In this document: one piece after another, positions 1,850 to 60,101 of the stretch
Position numbering within the stretch: the first letter of the stretch is position 1
How the letters are laid out: every line of letters begins with the position of its first letter
Origin: Fictibacillus phosphorivorans
GTDB lineage: Bacteria; Bacillota; Bacilli; Bacillales; Fictibacillaceae
Assembly: GCF_001629705.1 (NCBI RefSeq)
Contig: NZ_CP015378.1
Coordinates: 3,782,001-3,846,000 of the forward strand
Direction of reading: 5' to 3'
DNA: 64,000 nt
The notes under the pieces: generated by a model
Databases searched by the model: none
What the model was told of the DNA's origin: nothing
Seen by the model: only the letters and a program-made list of their open reading frames with translations
Program-made: the position numbers and the translations under genes

Positions 1850-3721
1850 TTATTTATTCAGCCACAGTACTTGTTCTGCTTTCTCATCATAATAAGAAGG
1901 AACTAAGCCCGTTTGCTTTAAGAACGTAAGTGGCACATAGACCTTGTTATAATACTTTTCTGGTTTTGCTGTAAGCAGAATTTTCTTCCCATTCACCGTT
2001 GCATACTTGCTGAGGTGTGATGCAACAACCTTACGTGATCCATCAACTACCGTGAAGTTAGATGAAGTAGAATTAAGTTTCATCTTATAACGTGTAGCAA
2101 GTCCTGGCATTGGGACGTACAACGTATTGTTCTTGGAAACAATCGGTGAGCCTAAGTTCAAGATCTGTCCTGACGTGATTGGTGTGATGCCATCTTTATA
2201 AGAGATGGTTTGGCCGAGCGTAATATAATGCTCGTTCATGTAGCCTGTAATTGTGCCTGCTTTCACCTTAAACCATTCTCCAGACTTACCTAGAATGATA
2301 ATCTTTTGATTGAGTTTGGTCTTGCCTAATTCAGCACTTGTTATTGAAGCAGATTTTCTAATCTTAGTACCTTCATAATTAACAAGTCCTGTCATCTGCA
2401 GTGCTGTTGTCGGAATCGTAGTTGTTTTATCATTTGTAATGACCGTACCTGGATAATAGAATGCTAGAATCTCACGGAATCCTTTACCCTGTTTAGCCAT
2501 AACGTTAGCACCAGTCTGACTCATTCCAACACCATGACCGTTTCCAACAACGGATACTTGATAGTCCACTGTTGTAGGTATAAATGACGTAACAAGTGTA
2601 CTGTTTACTTGAAGAGCATATTTAAACTGAGAACCGGTTAAAGTAAGCTGCTTATTAAACTTTTTAACTGTCCCTTTGTCATCTATTATTACTTTTCCGT
2701 TAGCATCCCTCATCACGTAAGTAAATGCAACGTTTGCACTCTTAATTCGTTTTCCTTTTGTAAGCTCGTCTGAAATAGTAAATGAATTAACGTCTATTAC
2801 CTTTGCATTCTTATAATCATTAGATAAAAACATTCTCTTTAACTGTGAAGCAAAAACAGGATTCTTTTCTTCTTTACTCCACCATGCTTCTGTGTTGTTT
2901 ACATCCAGTCCAGTTAATGAGAACTGTGTTTTATAAATCGTTTCACTATCCGTGCTCTTTACATCATACGGATCAGGTTTAGCTGGAAAGTATGGAAAAT
3001 CAACAGTACCGCTCGGCCAAGCACCCGTATTCGTTTCTGAATGTCCCCCATTTGATGAAGAATACACGCCATCAATAATTTTTCCGTTATAGCTCAGAAC
3101 TTTACCTTTTGTTTCAATGGCTGCTTTAATAAAATTATGATAATCCATGCTGTATCCTACATAACGTTGGAAAGAAACCGTATCCGTAACAGGTTTCCTT
3201 CCTACCCAATAGTGTAAATATGTTCTTGCCACAATAGCTTGTGAGCGCATTGTATGTATATGATAAGACTGATATAACTCACCAGGAAGAACACCCTGGA
3301 TGTATTCTTCAACCGGTATGCTGTTTACCGGTCGAACGTACTCACCCTCAACTTTAAAATTCATCGTACCCATGTATGATCTTTTTACTTTTCCGTTTAG
3401 CGTCGTGAGATGACTTGGAGATATACCTGCTGGTTTCAGTGAAAGTTCAGTTTGTCTGATCATTAACGTACTTCCGTCGTAAAGCCCAATCTGTTCATTT
3501 TCTACTTTAACTGTATATGTTTTGCCTGCTACTAAACTTCTTCCGCTAGTAACCTCTTTAAATGTTCCTTTTAATGAAAAATCCAAGGCTGAGAGTTGAT
3601 CTACCTCATGAATAAGTGAAACATTCACCTCAGACTCTGCTGCGTCAGCTACTTTGTTTTTTACCGGAAGAACACTAAACAAAAGCAACGCAACCACAAA
3701 TAGAACAATACCTTTTCTCAT
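1850..3721 (-). CDS. Secreted SpoIID/LytB-domain protein with SH3b and copper-amine-oxidase-like C-terminal domains
   Basis: The start at 3721 gives MRKGIVLFVVALLLFSVLPV, a clear signal peptide ending near VADA; an upstream ATG at 3757 adds 12 residues that would spoil it. Residues about 130-450 match the SpoIID/LytB family (EYIQGVLPGE, SQAIVARTYLHYW, YSSSNGGHSE, GHGVGMSQTGA). In SpoIID this fold is a lytic transglycosylase acting on peptidoglycan denuded of stem peptides; LytB is an amidase enhancer. An SH3b-like segment follows (KIRKSASITSAELGK). The last ~100 residues (KVYVPLTFLKQTGLVPSYYDE) resemble the copper amine oxidase N-terminal type repeat found on Bacillus wall proteins. Likely role: envelope remodelling outside the cell. 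Monocistronic. Confidence 0.8.
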   Translation of the reverse strand: MRKGIVLFVVALLLFSVLPVKNKVADAAESEVNVSLIHEVDQLSALDFSLKGTFKEVTSGRSLVAGKTYTVKVENEQIGLYDGSTLMIRQTELSLKPAGISPSHLTTLNGKVKRSYMGTMNFKVEGEYVRPVNSIPVEEYIQGVLPGELYQSYHIHTMRSQAIVARTYLHYWVGRKPVTDTVSFQRYVGYSMDYHNFIKAAIETKGKVLSYNGKIIDGVYSSSNGGHSETNTGAWPSGTVDFPYFPAKPDPYDVKSTDSETIYKTQFSLTGLDVNNTEAWWSKEEKNPVFASQLKRMFLSNDYKNAKVIDVNSFTISDELTKGKRIKSANVAFTYVMRDANGKVIIDDKGTVKKFNKQLTLTGSQFKYALQVNSTLVTSFIPTTVDYQVSVVGNGHGVGMSQTGANVMAKQGKGFREILAFYYPGTVITNDKTTTIPTTALQMTGLVNYEGTKIRKSASITSAELGKTKLNQKIIILGKSGEWFKVKAGTITGYMNEHYITLGQTISYKDGITPITSGQILNLGSPIVSKNNTLYVPMPGLATRYKMKLNSTSSNFTVVDGSRKVVASHLSKYATVNGKKILLTAKPEKYYNKVYVPLTFLKQTGLVPSYYDEKAEQVLWLNK

Positions 3722-6095: not shown

Positions 6096-6431
6096 TTAAA
6101 CACCTTCCTTATCAGAACACTTCCATGATTCGTAAGCTAAGAAGTCTCGAATATCTTCTTTATTAAGACCTAAATCTCTGGCTTGTAAAACAAGATCCAC
6201 CCATTCTGGATCTAGAATACCTACATGAATGCTCAGTAACTGCTCCACAGGAACCTCCAAAGCTTTAGCTATTTTTTGAATTATATGCGCAGATGGGTTT
6301 GTCTCATGATTTTCAATGCTGCTTAAATAACTTTTTGATATTCCCGCGATTGTCGCTAGCTTAGATAAACTCATCCGTTTTTTTAAACGATTATTTTTTA
6401 TTTGTAACCCTAGTTTCTTATTCACATCCAA
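6096..6431 (-). CDS. SinR-like repressor with its own SinI-type dimerisation segment
   Basis: About 111 residues. Residues 8-65 form a Xre-type helix-turn-helix (LGLQIKNNRLKKRMSLSKLA, then ISKSYLSSIENHETNPS), the DNA-binding domain of SinR. After residue 75, LDPEWVDLVLQARDLGLNKE, IRDFLAYESWK is the SinR/SinI helical-hairpin interaction domain. The start is uncertain: TTG at 6434 or 6431 or GTG at 6425; AAAAGGAAG precedes them and favours 6431. Placed directly after the sortase gene in the sipW2-tasA2 operon, it could provide feedback on the matrix genes. Confidence 0.85.
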   Translation of the reverse strand: MDVNKKLGLQIKNNRLKKRMSLSKLATIAGISKSYLSSIENHETNPSAHIIQKIAKALEVPVEQLLSIHVGILDPEWVDLVLQARDLGLNKEDIRDFLAYESWKCSDKEGV

Positions 6432-6443
6432 CAACTTCCTTTT

Positions 6444-7070
6444 CTATAAAACCTCCTCTTTTTTTAAAACAGCTTTCACAATATAACGATGAGTAGGATT
6501 TTTCATAGGATGACATGTAATCAAGGTAATCATTGCTTCGTTCTTTTTGTTATTTTGTAGAACGGTTAGGTCAGTTGGTTTAACGAGAATTTCTTCCGTT
6601 ACGGTGTACATCAATTTTTGATGAGCTGTTTCAACTTGAATGGAATCCCCCGGCTTTACTTCAGGCAGCCGGTTAAATTGTTTTCCATACGTGTAGCTGC
6701 GATGTGCCGCAATCGCAGCGTTCCCTGTTTGCCCAAGTGGAGACGTACCCGACAGATGCCCCGCTCCCACCTTAAGGTTGTTTTTTGTTGCTCCTTCTAA
6801 AATAGGAATAGACAACTGAATTTGATTAATGGTCAATTTTCCAATTATTCCTGTCTTCGAAGAGACTTGCTCCTTATAATCTTGACTTCTTTCTTGTAAA
6901 AAAATATCATCCAACTGTTTGTAGCTCTGTTTAATCTTTGATTGGTCCATCGAGGATTCCCAGTCTTCAAGCAGCCTTTGTTCTTGATAAGAAAAGTACA
7001 CACTTTTGGCTTTCGGGTACGCCATTGTCATGACCCCTGCAAAAATCAACAAGTATGCCAGCCATCTCAT
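6444..7070 (-). CDS. Sortase, class D type
   Basis: 208 residues. The N-terminal hydrophobic segment (residues 3-18) anchors it in the membrane. The catalytic triad is visible: His123 in AAHRSY, Cys186 in TLITCHP, Arg195 in THRYIV. The TLITC signature and length suit class D sortases, which transpeptidate LPXTG-like sorting signals onto peptidoglycan. The start lies 3 bases after the stop of an LPXTG-protein gene, its obvious substrate. A second LPXTG protein at 13.3-14.0 kb has no local sortase and may also use it. That a sortase sits inside a sipW-tasA cluster is unusual. Confidence 0.9.
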   Translation of the reverse strand: MRWLAYLLIFAGVMTMAYPKAKSVYFSYQEQRLLEDWESSMDQSKIKQSYKQLDDIFLQERSQDYKEQVSSKTGIIGKLTINQIQLSIPILEGATKNNLKVGAGHLSGTSPLGQTGNAAIAAHRSYTYGKQFNRLPEVKPGDSIQVETAHQKLMYTVTEEILVKPTDLTVLQNNKKNEAMITLITCHPMKNPTHRYIVKAVLKKEEVL

Positions 7071-7073
7071 GCC

Positions 7074-8057
7074 TTATCCTCTTCTAATTCGCTTTTGTAC
7101 AAGTAGTTTCTTTACAAATAATATGCAAAGTCCAGTCATGGATAATAAAGAACCAATTAACATCCATACCATTGGATCTTCTTCACCTGTTTGCGGTAAT
7201 GATTCGGTACCTGTTGATGGTGAACGAGTCGGCTTCTGAGTATCACCTTTTGTTGGAGGTTGTTGTGCCGGTGGTTCACTGCCATTATCTCCATCGTCTG
7301 GGTTGCCATCGCCTGGATTACCGTCACCTGGGTCGCCATCGCCTGGATCTCCATCACCTGGGTCGCCGTCGCCTGGGTCACCGTCGCCTGGATCGCCATC
7401 GCCTGGGTCGCCGTCGCCTGGGTCACCGTCGCCTGGATCGCCATCTCCTGGATCGCCATCGCCTGGGTCACCGTCGCCTGGATCGCCATCGCCTGGGTCG
7501 CCATCGCCTGGATCACCGTCGTCTGGGTCGCCATCGCCTGGATCACCGTCGCCTGGGTCGCCATCGCCTGGATCACCGTCGCCTGGGTCGCCGTCATCCG
7601 GATCTTCGCCTTCACCTTGAACTTGAATCTCATAAGTGGTCGCTAACCCTTGAAATTCGTTTCCAGCTTCACCAGCTAAACCTATAGAAAAAGTTAATTT
7701 GTCATCTGTTTTAGCTGGTAAGGCTATGGGGGTTATTGTAAGTTCACGTAATTTCCCTTTAAATAGTTCAGTATTGTCTTTTTTTACAGTTACAATTAAC
7801 GCACTAAAAAGCATCTCACCTGTTTTATGTTTTGTTTTTACGTTATATTTCAATAGCTGGTTACCAGTGTTTTTTACAGTTAATGTGTAGTCCTCACTGT
7901 AACCTGGCCGCATATTCTTCATCTCAAATGCGGATGGTGTAAGCTCTAGTCCATAGCTTCCATCCGAAAACGAGTAAATTTTTTCTGATTGTATAGCAGC
8001 TGCACCGATTATTAATACAGCCATAACTCCATAAATAATTTGTTTTAGACTAAGCAA
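7074..8057 (-). CDS. LPXTG wall-anchored protein with TasA-like domain and Gly-Asp-Pro repeat stalk
   Basis: About 327 residues from TTG 8057 (GGGGTG 8 bases upstream); GTG 8072 is an alternative. Order: signal peptide (IIYGVMAVLIIGAAA); a TasA/camelysin-like domain of about 120 residues with the markers MRPGYSEDYTLTVKNTGNQ and AGNEFQGLATTYEI; a stalk of about 20 repeats of DPGDG; then LPQTGEEDP, a hydrophobic helix and KRIRRG. The GNE-Y/F-QG motif is shared with the TasA proteins at 8.9 and the LPXTG protein at 13.3 kb. I infer a wall-anchored subunit or base for TasA-type fibres. Sortase follows immediately. Confidence 0.85.
   Translation of the reverse strand: MLSLKQIIYGVMAVLIIGAAAIQSEKIYSFSDGSYGLELTPSAFEMKNMRPGYSEDYTLTVKNTGNQLLKYNVKTKHKTGEMLFSALIVTVKKDNTELFKGKLRELTITPIALPAKTDDKLTFSIGLAGEAGNEFQGLATTYEIQVQGEGEDPDDGDPGDGDPGDGDPGDGDPGDGDPDDGDPGDGDPGDGDPGDGDPGDGDPGDGDPGDGDPGDGDPGDGDPGDGDPGDGDPGDGDPGDGDPGDGNPGDGNPDDGDNGSEPPAQQPPTKGDTQKPTRSPSTGTESLPQTGEEDPMVWMLIGSLLSMTGLCILFVKKLLVQKRIRRG
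7290..7605 (-). repeat. In-gene tandem repeat encoding DPGDG units
   Basis: Near-identical 15-base units differing mainly at third positions (gg-tcg-cc-atc/gtc-gcctg) encode the acidic stalk of the LPXTG protein. All three frames of the opposite strand stay open here, giving spurious Pro-Ser-Gly and similar reading frames. Copy number is likely to vary between strains. Confidence 0.9.
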
Positions 8058-8102
8058 TAGACCACACCCCACTTTAATAGGTTTTGAACGTCACGAGTTT
8101 GT

Positions 8103-27497: not shown

Positions 27498-27630
27498 ATA
27501 TACTCTCCTTCCCCAATTCCGCTAAAACGAAACCTAATTTTCAAATTATTTTACAATATTTTTTAGAAAATTGGAACCCTTTATCTTAATATTTAATATT
27601 TTTCGGAGAGTTTGAGTATCTGAATTAAAG

Positions 27631-27960
27631 CTATCCATCTTTCTTTAAAAAGATTTTCCATGATTCGTAAGCTAAGAAGGATTTGACTTCTTCTTTACTA
27701 ATTCCTATATTTTGTGCTTGGATCATTAAATTTGCCCATTCTGGATCAAGTTGGTTATCAGAATAACTAATAATGGATTCAACCGGAATTTCAAGAGCAA
27801 AGGCTAGCTTATTCAATACATGAACCGAGGGACTGGTGCCATGGTTTTCAATATTACTTAAGTGCCCTTTTGAGATACCTGCCTTAAACGCTAAATTTGT
27901 TATACTAAACCGTTTTGATAACCTTAATTTTTTAATGTGCTGTCCAAGGGTTCTATCAAT
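27631..27960 (-). CDS. SinR-like repressor, paralogue 3, with probable AUU start
   Basis: A full SinR-type frame runs from a stop at 27976 to 27631, yet it has no ATG, GTG or TTG before codon 49. GGGAGG (27973-27968) lies 7 bases before ATT 27960-27958, giving about 109 residues, the normal SinR length. N-terminal Xre helix-turn-helix: IKKLRLSKRFSITNLAFKAG, ISKGHLSNIENHGTSPS. C-terminal SinI-interaction hairpin: LDPEWANLMIQAQNIGISKE, VKSFLAYESWK. It lies just downstream of the exopolysaccharide cluster. Alternatively it is a gene that lost its start codon; the intact frame argues against long decay. Confidence 0.75.
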   Translation of the reverse strand: MDRTLGQHIKKLRLSKRFSITNLAFKAGISKGHLSNIENHGTSPSVHVLNKLAFALEIPVESIISYSDNQLDPEWANLMIQAQNIGISKEEVKSFLAYESWKIFLKKDG

Positions 27961-38024: not shown

Positions 38025-38057
38025 TGACAACATTTTTAATAACCCCTGTTTATAATC
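38025..38057 (+). promoter_or_regulatory. Promoter of the first sinI-like gene, shared design with the second
   Basis: TGACAACATTTT (38025-38036), 14 bases, TATAATC (38051-38057). The same words at the same spacing occur before the other sinI (43245-43277). The reverse complement TGTTGTCA resembles a Spo0A box (TTTGTCRAA) in 7 of 9 positions. Confidence 0.55.
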
Positions 38058-38173: not shown

Positions 38174-38293
38174 ATGGACCATATCTTGTCTTTAGACAAA
38201 GAATGGATTGAATTAATTATAGAGGCGAAAGATCAAGGACTGACGAAACAAGATATAAGAGATTTTTTAAAATGTACAAAAAACAGTAAATAA
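38174..38293 (+). CDS. sinI: SinI-like antirepressor 1
   Basis: 39 residues from ATG 38174 with GGGGGGAAG 6 bases upstream; the longer frame from 38105 is not needed. LDKEWIELIIEAKDQGLTKQ, then IRDFLK, is the SinI helical hairpin that binds SinR and breaks its tetramer. It is shorter than B. subtilis SinI (57 residues). It lies alone, divergent from the exopolysaccharide cluster, without an adjacent sinR. Confidence 0.85.
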   Translation: MDHILSLDKEWIELIIEAKDQGLTKQDIRDFLKCTKNSK

Positions 38294-43108: not shown

Positions 43109-43244
43109 CCTTTCAGCAGTTAAAATTAGTTTAATGGGTATTTATTAAGAATAATTTCAACATAACCTGCATCATTCCTTTAAATTTGTTTTATAGGGGT
43201 CTTATTACGCTTCCTTATATTACATTTTTATTACAGTCATTTTC

Positions 43245-43277
43245 TGACAACATTTTCTATTGAGCTTGTATATAATC
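43245..43277 (+). promoter_or_regulatory. Promoter of the riboswitch-sinI-sinR unit
   Basis: TGACAACATTTT (43245-43256), 14 bases, TATAATC (43271-43277): the same element as before the other sinI. Transcription should start near 43284, about 20 bases before the riboswitch. Confidence 0.55.
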
Positions 43278-43304
43278 AATTTGAGTTAGGAAATAGGTCC
43301 TAAT

Positions 43305-43420
43305 TATCCTCCAGACAAGGGCAAACATTTTCGAAAGAAGTGGGCGCAAAGCCACGGGTCTAAGGCTTTAAAAGCTATGATCGCCGGGTTGCCTGGACAT
43401 CATTTACTTTCTGGAGGGAT
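43305..43420 (+). promoter_or_regulatory. Class I c-di-GMP riboswitch (GEMM-I) in the sinI leader
   Basis: Conserved aptamer words occur in order: AAGGGCAAAC (43317-43326), tetraloop CGAAAG (43332-43337), GCGCAAAGCCACGGGTCTAA (43344-43363), and GCCGGGTTGCC (43383-43393). TCCAG (43310-43314) can pair with CTGGA (43393-43397) as P1. The same 5' strand, as CCTCCAG (43308-43314), can instead pair with CTGGAGG (43411-43417), which contains the sinI ribosome binding site. The two pairings exclude each other. Ligand-bound P1 would free the site, so I predict an ON switch acting on translation. No terminator T run is seen before the start codon. Confidence 0.92.
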
Positions 43421-43425
43421 TCTTA

Positions 43426-43569
43426 GTGGAAAATACGTTTAAGCTGGATCACGAGTGGATTGAATTAATAAGAGAAGCTAGAGATCAAGGTTTTACTAAA
43501 GAAGAGATTATTCGTTTTTTACAAAATCCCCAATTAACTTTAGAAAACTATCAATTGCAAGGAAATTAA
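43426..43569 (+). CDS. sinI: SinI-like antirepressor 2, under the c-di-GMP riboswitch
   Basis: 47 residues from GTG 43426; GGAGGG (43413-43418) lies 7 bases upstream and is part of the riboswitch switching stem. LDHEWIELIREARDQGFTKE, then IIRFL, is the SinI hairpin that binds SinR; the C-terminal 14 residues are unstructured. sinR follows after 97 bases. This gives the classic sinI-sinR arrangement plus an added RNA switch. Confidence 0.9.
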   Translation: MENTFKLDHEWIELIREARDQGFTKEEIIRFLQNPQLTLENYQLQGN

Positions 43570-43666
43570 TTCATTGAAATAGTAAGCAAGTCACAGAATT
43601 TATTTACTTACCTCATACAGAAAGATATAATAAAGGCAAATTATTTCTAAATGGGGATTGCAAATG

Positions 43667-43987
43667 ATGATTGGTGAGCGAGTAAAAAAATATCGTACCG
43701 AAAAAGGCCTCTCCATTACAGCATTGGCTGATAAAGCAGGGGTAGCAAAATCTTATATAAGTGCTCTAGAGCGAAATATTCAACAAAACCCTTCGATACA
43801 GCTTCTTGAAAAGATTGCGGATGTATTGAATATTTCTGTAGATCACTTAATTAAAGCTGAAGTTGATACAAAAAACTTAGATCATGAATGGGCTGAATTA
43901 GTTAAGGAAGCTATGGGATCTGGGGTAAGTAAAGAACAGTTTAAAGAGTTTTTGGAATTTAACAAATGGAAAAATAAACAAAACTAA
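43667..43987 (+). CDS. sinR: SinR, master repressor of biofilm matrix genes
   Basis: 106 residues from ATG 43667 (ATG 43664 also possible; GGGGA upstream). MIGERVKKYRTEKGLSITAL and VAKSYISALERNIQQNPSIQ match the SinR DNA-binding domain closely. C-terminal LDHEWAELVKEAMGSGVSKE, FKEFLEFNKWK is the SinI-binding and multimerisation hairpin. Of the three SinR-type proteins here it is nearest to B. subtilis SinR. It probably binds the GTTCTTT sites at the tapA, sipW2/inhA and exopolysaccharide promoters. Confidence 0.95.
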   Translation: MIGERVKKYRTEKGLSITALADKAGVAKSYISALERNIQQNPSIQLLEKIADVLNISVDHLIKAEVDTKNLDHEWAELVKEAMGSGVSKEQFKEFLEFNKWKNKQN

Positions 43988-44018
43988 CCACCCTAGTTCC
44001 GACTAAGGTGGTTTTTGT
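43985..44018 (+). terminator. Terminator of sinR
   Basis: AACCACC (43985-43991) pairs with GGTGGTT, followed by a T-rich tract. Confidence 0.8.
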
Positions 44019-44020
44019 TT

Positions 44021-44584
44021 TCACAATGCATAGATATATATGATAAAAGAAGAAACGGTTAAGATTACAAAAAATATTCCAATTGAAATAATAAATAAGT
44101 TTTTCTTACGTGTATACCATAAGTTTGGACTAGAGCAATCCACGTTTCTCACATGAAAGAAGAGGCCGATATTCACAACTGCTAATATCCATATTGTAAC
44201 AAGTAAAAGAATAGGCCAGTCCAATTGAAGAACTTTATCAATTGAATTTCGATGTAAGTAAACTTGAAAAAACATAATGATACTCAATGAAATATTCATA
44301 AAATAACTTAATCTCCGTTGCTTTTCCCACTCCTTTCCCATCTTTTTTTTCTCATAAGTTGCAACTTTTTCAAAAATTAATAATAAATACTTTGTTGATT
44401 CTTTCTTAAGTAAACCTATTAATCCATTCATAAACGCTACTACCCCTAACAAAAAATATAAGGAAGCATATGTCATGTCAGCCAACATGATTAATAGAAA
44501 AACTACATACATTATTAGAATGATAACTATATTCAGCATCATGAACTGCTTACGTCTCATCTCTTTTATTTCTTCTGCTCTCAT
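44021..44584 (-). CDS. Membrane protein of unknown function, possible SinR target
   Basis: 187 residues from ATG 44584 (AGGGATG 6-8 bases upstream). Five hydrophobic segments in two groups, separated by a basic loop (LIFEKVATYEKKKMGKEWEK). No family recognised. Three AAAGAAC-like words in the same direction lie 44-111 bases upstream, so it may belong to the SinR regulon. Confidence 0.6.
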   Translation of the reverse strand: MRAEEIKEMRRKQFMMLNIVIILIMYVVFLLIMLADMTYASLYFLLGVVAFMNGLIGLLKKESTKYLLLIFEKVATYEKKKMGKEWEKQRRLSYFMNISLSIIMFFQVYLHRNSIDKVLQLDWPILLLVTIWILAVVNIGLFFHVRNVDCSSPNLWYTRKKNLFIISIGIFFVILTVSSFIIYIYAL

Positions 44585-45973: not shown

Positions 45974-46082
45974 TTTCTTAAAATCTCAACGTTTGTCTAA
46001 GCAACTTGTCTGCCTCTACATATGATATACAGAAACCGAAACCAATTGGAAGTCGGTATCAATTTGTGAGGTGAAACGAATA

Positions 46083-46334
46083 ATGTGTAACAAGTGTGGA
46101 AACTACGACCACTGCAAACATGAAAAGCATGAAAAAGTTGAGAAGTGTTACAAGAAAGTAGAATGGGTTTGTGAAGAATCTTCTTCATCATCCTCTTCAT
46201 CTTCTTCCTCTTCTTCATCGTCCTCTTCTTCATCTTCTTCTAGCTACGAAGTGTTGAAGTGCAAGAAGTACAAAAAAGCTAAGAAAAAGCAACATCATCG
46301 CTGTTGCGATCCTTGGGCAAGAATCTTGTTCTAG
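46083..46334 (+). CDS. Cys/His-rich protein with a polyserine tract, possible spore coat protein
   Basis: 83 residues from ATG 46083 (GAGGTG 9 bases upstream). MCNKCGNYDHCKHEKHEKVE has a metal-binding look; then Cys/Lys segments, a tract of about 24 Ser, and a second basic Cys part (VLKCKKYKKAKKKQHHRCCD). Serine-, Cys- and Lys/Tyr-rich small proteins are common in spore coats. CATATGATA at 46019-46027 fits a sigma-K -10 box but its -35 is unclear. Family not recognised. Confidence 0.6.
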   Translation: MCNKCGNYDHCKHEKHEKVEKCYKKVEWVCEESSSSSSSSSSSSSSSSSSSSSSYEVLKCKKYKKAKKKQHHRCCDPWARILF

Positions 46335-59961: not shown

Positions 59962-60101
59962 TCTCTTATTTCGAGCAGGCGGAGGGAATTAGCCCTATGA
60001 AGCCCGGCAACCACCTATTTTGTTAGGCACGGTGCTACATCTAACAGTTTTACAGACTGAAAGATAAGAGGATGTGAACACAACCATTCGTCCTCTTTTT
60101 T
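59962..60101 (+). promoter_or_regulatory. SAM-I riboswitch (S box) with terminator
   Basis: TCTCTTAT (59962-59969) pairs with ATAAGAG (60064-60070) as P1. Between them are GCAGGCGGAGGGAATTAGCC, CTATGAAGCCCGGCAACC, GGCACGGTGCTA and the closing ACTGAAAGAT, the S-box core in order. AAGAGGATG...TCCTCTTTTTT after it forms the terminator (60066-60101) that shares its 5' strand with P1. Expected: SAM binding favours termination, so the next gene is on when methionine/SAM is low. Confidence 0.93.

Follow-up and report, generated by a model that had tools for sequence, protein, structure and literature searches.

How might c-di-GMP reach the matrix genes of a Gram-positive spore-former? In our view that route is poorly settled, partly because the model organism, B. 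subtilis, shows no riboswitch of the kind considered here. The question is raised by a locus of Fictibacillus phosphorivorans. In a stretch of 64,000 nucleotides (the window) of its genome, which is one contig of 4.23 Mb, a c-di-GMP-I riboswitch aptamer lies directly in front of the gene for a SinI-type antirepressor, with sinR following. We hold it probable that this leader is a translational ON switch, by which c-di-GMP would turn on sinI and, through SinI, relieve SinR. A riboswitch on an antirepressor couples two familiar decision systems in a single step, and the circuit that results, from c-di-GMP to SinI to release of SinR repression, is clear and testable.

The sinI leader, its genes and their promoter-like elements

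The initial annotation had placed a GEMM-I aptamer immediately before a 47-residue sinI and then sinR, and had proposed an Infernal search of the leader with RF01051. That search (cmscan) returns a full-length match, well above the gathering score (model positions 1-87 of 87; E 7.3e-13), and the PF08671 match bears out the identity of the gene behind it. The features of the locus, and a second sinI of the window, are these:

43245..43277, plus strand: promoter-like element TGACAACATTTT-N14-TATAATC (genome-wide pattern search)
43286..43303, plus strand: short 5' hairpin TTAGG..CCTAA upstream of the aptamer (read by eye)
43308..43314, plus strand: CCTCCAG, the 5' strand common to P1 (as TCCAG) and the ribosome-binding-site helix (sequence, alignment)
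43310..43396, plus strand: c-di-GMP-I riboswitch aptamer, RF01051 (74.9 bits, gathering score 35)
43393..43397, plus strand: CTGGA, the 3' strand of P1 (5 bp form in 17/17 leaders)
43411..43417, plus strand: CTGGAGG, the ribosome-binding site with a 5' extension, pairing with CCTCCAG (7 bp in 17/17)
43426..43569, plus strand: sinI, 47 aa, GTG start, stand-alone SinI domain (PF08671, 40.9 bits; cut-off 31.4)
43603..43631, plus strand: promoter-like TTTACT-N17-TATAAT between sinI and sinR (10/12 matches, weak)
43667..43987 (from the second ATG), plus strand: sinR, HTH_3 plus SinI domain (Pfam; 1b0n_A, E 1.2e-35)
38174..38293, plus strand: second stand-alone sinI, 39 aa (PF08671, 51.8 bits)

By its sequence the RNA is a c-di-GMP-I riboswitch aptamer, and we infer that it binds the ligand. 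Its GGC core, which is expected to hold the ligand-selecting G and which we take to be the site of Vc2 G20, is present, and it is kept in all 57 class-I sinI leaders of the 80 sinR loci described below. (For the ligand-selecting role of Vc2 G20, see the consulted part of PMC9262584.) The window genome has six class-I aptamers and 13 GGDEF matches; an aptamer of another family, a SAM riboswitch (RF00162, 77 bits), lies at 59963-60070. The stem letters of the 5' hairpin vary between genomes, a helix being drawable by eye in most. Terminator-based transcriptional control finds no support in the window: only 29 nt separate the end of the aptamer from the sinI start codon, and a scan of 43200-44060 returned no terminator-like site on the plus strand, the interval between aptamer and sinR included.

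PF08671 is the sole Pfam match of the 47-residue product, which lacks an HTH. In sequence comparison it aligns with residues 7-36 of 1b0n_B (22.9 bits, E 0.00065); against the NCBIfam equivalog NF046031 it scores 32.2 bits, under the cut-off of 80, so that it is a relative of the B. subtilis-type protein and not its equivalog. Residues 1-105 of the SinR query align to residues 1-108 of 1b0n_A, which is B. subtilis SinR, at 124.9 bits. The SinI and SinR of the window accordingly match both chains of the B. subtilis SinR-SinI complex, a homology that leads one to expect that SinI would bind and inactivate SinR here as well.

The element in front of sinI is a rarity. Allowing a spacer of N{10,18}, TGACAACATTTT and TATAATC occur together at exactly two sites in the 4.23 Mb, upstream of the two stand-alone sinI genes (the second copy lies at 38025-38057). 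By eye, the element is largely kept in 17 Fictibacillus sequences, with alterations in G007 and G017. No sigma-A promoter with the usual spacing was found before sinI in the scan of 43200-44060; the 21-nt gap from TGACA to TATAAT presumably resembles that of Spo0A-activated promoters. Two promoter-like sites were found in the scanned region against 2.9 expected by chance, and the site at 43603..43631 weakly suggests that sinR could also be transcribed separately.

The second sinI adjoins an exopolysaccharide-type cluster on the minus strand, which reaches 37.8 kb in the window and includes genes for a chain-length protein, an eps-family tyrosine autokinase, glycosyltransferases and an O-antigen ligase-type protein. 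A cmscan of the window gave no Rfam match in front of this second gene. One sinI thus seems to have a c-di-GMP input and the other apparently none, both under a common promoter type. The whole genome has five SinI-domain matches, all inside the window. A 114-aa SinI-domain frame among the exopolysaccharide-cluster genes (~27630-27960, minus strand) is probably SinR-like. At 6096-8072 (minus strand) a SinR-like protein (HTH plus SinI domain) has as neighbours a sortase and an LPXTG-anchored protein of weak match; this may be a second SinR-type target locus. A small protein encoded at 46071-46334 has a stretch of ~20 serines flanked by ends rich in lysine and cysteine, and its one weak Pfam match falls below the cut-off.

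Two helices that compete for one strand

The initial annotation had proposed two alternative pairings in the leader, and both are there. P1 joins TCCAG (43310-43314) to CTGGA (43393-43397); the site helix joins CCTCCAG (43308-43314) to CTGGAGG (43411-43417) and covers the ribosome-binding site. Since TCCAG belongs to both, the two helices are mutually exclusive. The mechanism that this arrangement suggests is simple. In the absence of ligand, CCUCCAG would pair with CUGGAGG and the ribosome-binding site of sinI would be hidden; with c-di-GMP bound, P1 (UCCAG/CUGGA) would be held, its 5' strand would be occupied and the ribosome site would open. SinI would then be made and would bind SinR through the SinI-type helices common to both proteins, and SinR repression of the presumed matrix genes would be relieved.

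Conservation was assessed in an alignment of 17 of the 18 Fictibacillus leaders (the divergent G001 was left out). Every cell is paired in both helices (100%, 17/17 leaders). When the partner strand is slid by 1-3 columns, the paired share drops to 0-62% (P1) or 44-85% (site helix), in a control that is biased towards the true register by the structure having been read from one aligned sequence. The segment TCTGGAGGG over the ribosome-binding site is invariant in 17/17 leaders, and the linker varies. One P1 pair runs from UA through UG to CG across species, a covariation that is equalled by 240 of 500 shuffles; the window species has the CG form, which gives a perfect site helix, and the site helix has no two-sided changes among the 17 leaders. 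Covariation as proof of the helices was discarded: within Fictibacillus there is too little variation.

Folding calculations speak to the consequence of choosing one helix over the other. In the window, forcing P1 raises the predicted accessibility of the ribosome site from 0.01 to 0.46, at a cost of 8.7 kcal/mol relative to the free fold (these values come from a run over 58 of 59 leaders, in some of which, L073, L070 and L080, a doubtful P1 was chosen). The forced-P1 comparison covers class-I leaders, 55 of the 59 (the class-II L133 was left out, as were L141, L146 and L147, which have no 3-bp P1 at the fixed place). Accessibility rises by more than 0.1 in 51/55 and falls in one, four leaders in all showing no rise, and the median goes from 0.17 to 0.57, in a folding model without tertiary contacts or co-transcriptional order. 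Controls with P1, linker and flank shuffled also respond (520 of 1100 rise, 79 fall; medians 0.40 to 0.58), which means that the distinction of the real leaders lies mainly in how well their free form hides the site.

Read by eye across genera, the leaders would reach the same end by three different platforms. The first, that of Fictibacillus and some others, has the ribosome site covered by the 5' strand of P1. The second, found in Mesobacillus, Metabacillus, Sutcliffiella, Jeotgalibacillus and others, extends the 3' strand of P1 into a CCUGAAAUAC..GUAUUUUAGG-type hairpin that covers the start of the site. The third, that of the Paenibacillus group, sets a CCC strand at the end of the aptamer against the GGGGG of the site. 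P1 and the closed site should exclude each other in all three, so that ligand should open the site.

Class-I c-di-GMP aptamers work in both directions, ON and OFF, and the opposite sign has to be weighed. Were the leader an OFF switch, c-di-GMP would lower SinI translation and high c-di-GMP would keep SinR active. Vc2 is called a translational OFF switch in the consulted part of PMC9262584, and the ON case is an argument from base-pairing; yet each of the three platforms covers the ribosome site with an aptamer-adjoining strand that P1 should use, and for that reason P1 and an open site go together. Array data from B. thuringiensis 407, as given in the relevant part of PMC7793685, also have sinI up at high c-di-GMP, in a comparison that concerns the level of sinI only. 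We regard the OFF direction as unlikely. The translational ON logic of the initial annotation, with sinI as its target, is the model that sequence, conservation and folding favour.

Recurrence, and the target of the riboswitch

In the genus, a class-I aptamer stands 39-50 nt before a SinI-domain match in 18/18 Fictibacillus genomes. This excludes chance placement of the aptamer before sinI, and gives a positive result for the search of related genomes that the initial annotation had suggested.

The same 18 genomes bear on the suggestion that the aptamer is real and its output minor, the level of SinI being set instead by the common sinI promoter and by a second, riboswitch-free sinI. Both sinI genes of the window do share a promoter element unique to them in the genome, and in 9/18 Fictibacillus genomes a further short (<100 aa) SinI-domain frame was read by eye from the listing. 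A second sinI of this kind, with no riboswitch match, could blunt the effect of c-di-GMP. Against a minor role, the leader is kept in all 18, no short frame besides the riboswitch sinI appears among the matches listed for the other nine (also by eye), and the use of two aptamer classes on one gene argues that the control matters. We consider a minor output improbable.

Beyond the genus, an order sample of 61 genomes was searched (23 of them a second time), with aptamer-sinI pairs matched by eye and gaps computed; class II was searched in 11 of the 61. SinI-domain matches occur in 38 genomes, and in 28 of these a c-di-GMP aptamer precedes one (27 class I, 1 class II); the other 10 have no aptamer-sinI pair. 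The 27 class-I genomes hold 30 pairs, with the aptamer 42-75 nt before the SinI-domain match, and come from 24 family groups of the sample, which has 247 class-I matches altogether. Two of the 30 SinI partners fall under the Pfam cut-off (G039, G075). Fourteen control genomes, B. subtilis among them, gave neither a class-I nor a class-II match. The one class-II case, G067 (L206), has in its own genus group a class-I counterpart, G022 (L205); leaving the orthology of the loci aside, their sequences make a swap of aptamer class possible.

A complementary view comes from 80 sinR loci, the best 80 of 227 and hence biased to the query; 16 are from Fictibacillus and largely repeat the genus sample, and two (L133 and L176) belong to one Paenibacillus genome. 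Rfam finds 58 c-di-GMP riboswitches in 57 of these loci (57 class I, 1 class II). Behind every one, within 15-40 nt, is an ORF of 39-54 aa, and all 58 ORFs match PF08671 at E <= 1e-3. On the sinR strand lie 33 of the 58 (31 before sinR, 2 farther downstream); the remaining 25 lie on the opposite strand and point at sinR, 19 of them adjacent to it and 6 at least some 600 bases away. There is no riboswitch above the Rfam cut-off before 24 of the 82 short SinI-domain frames of these loci, among them the F. macauensis (L120) frame and five others, spread over four Halalkalibacter loci. The F. macauensis frame stands before sinR, and in this lack of a riboswitch match it is unlike the 15 other Fictibacillus loci. 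One locus, L149 (G034), carries two tandem class-I aptamers (2066-2154 and 2769-2859, minus strand), each before its own SinI-domain frame.

The class-II arrangement is regular in the genus group of Paenibacillus sp. Soil522. SinI-domain matches, some under the Pfam cut-off, are present in 16 of its 25 genomes, and in 16/16 of these a class-II aptamer precedes a sinI that is convergent with sinR (no riboswitch match came up at L177, which is the second sinR locus of G077). By eye, GUCCC follows the aptamer in 7/16 leaders, all seven with GGGGGAC at the ribosome site; the nine others have CCCC, and eight of the nine are without GGGGGAC.

These layouts point to the target. Many relatives have the riboswitch-sinI unit on the strand opposite to sinR and directed towards it; a leader so placed is unable to act on sinR translation in cis, and the target should therefore be SinI itself. 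An action on sinR instead, whether by read-through across sinI-sinR or by antisense RNA at convergent loci, is highly improbable: sinI and sinR of the window do share a strand, with no terminator-like site between them on it, and the consulted text of PMC9943018 suggests that a c-di-GMP-I riboswitch acts as antisense on a SinR-like XRE gene, but the aptamer is immediately followed by a sinI ORF in 25/25 minus-strand cases and in 16/16 Paenibacillus-group genomes, and in the window a weak promoter-like site stands between sinI and sinR. An antisense effect in addition to the control of sinI is conceivable.

The arrangement in the window is thus real, as the initial annotation had it, but it is no local curiosity: it is widespread in Bacillales and in Paenibacillus, where it comes with either of two aptamer classes and in two gene orders. 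Computation has shown the aptamer, the genes, the competing helices, their conservation and the recurrence of the unit; the observation is confirmed, and the mechanism is a model with good support. That one small gene is preceded by either of two unrelated aptamers suggests strong selection for a link between c-di-GMP and SinI, and c-di-GMP probably switches biofilm formation on directly in this soil bacterium and many of its relatives. On balance we lean towards a wider proposal: that direct control of SinI by c-di-GMP is the usual wiring of the Sin system in Bacillales and Paenibacillus, having arisen two or more times, from the unrelated class-I and class-II aptamers; that B. subtilis is the exception; and that some "antisense-acting" c-di-GMP riboswitches are leaders of an overlooked convergent sinI. 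What should surprise the specialist is how widely the arrangement is spread, that two aptamer classes serve it, and that sinI and sinR can converge.

Comparison with known systems

The initial annotation knew of no described SinI riboswitch. One has in fact been listed: a table row of Irla et al. 2015 (PMC4342826), in the part consulted, reads "(c-di-GMP)-sinI, Control of biofilm formation, BMMGA3_08510" for Bacillus methanolicus. With that one-row precedent, "undescribed" is too strong a word for the association of a c-di-GMP riboswitch with sinI. B. methanolicus MGA3 has, like the window, a c-di-GMP riboswitch on sinI; the entry, as consulted, is a bare table listing, from which class, mechanism, structure, conservation and test are absent. 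In the consulted portions of the open-licence PMC literature we found neither the mechanism nor its spread described, nor a class-II aptamer before sinI, and the riboswitch-sinI link is absent from those of PMC2614493, PMC7423583, PMC8876208, PMC10240345, PMC6143707, PMC2885750 and PMC9262584.

B. subtilis has the same two proteins as the window, antirepressor and repressor (1b0n), and, unlike the window, neither a class-I nor a class-II match; its sinI is transcribed under Spo0A control, according to the consulted part of PMC3163267. The Bc2 riboswitch of cbpA/cap in the B. cereus group resembles the window leader in being, as the consulted parts of PMC7423583 and PMC4933901 describe it, a class-I ON switch of a Bacillus on a gene of surface life. 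Bc2 acts on the transcription of one collagen-binding adhesin, whereas the window leader would act on the antirepressor of a master regulator.

A further comparison is with a SinR-like gene of Paenibacillus, where the consulted part of PMC9943018 places a c-di-GMP-I aptamer opposite the sinR relative and reads it as antisense control. In the 16 Soil522-group genomes, in contrast, the class-II aptamer leads a convergent sinI. Judged from those 16 genomes, the "antisense-acting" riboswitch of PMC9943018 may likewise be an overlooked sinI leader, and by that analogy a convergent sinI would be the simpler reading of the case.
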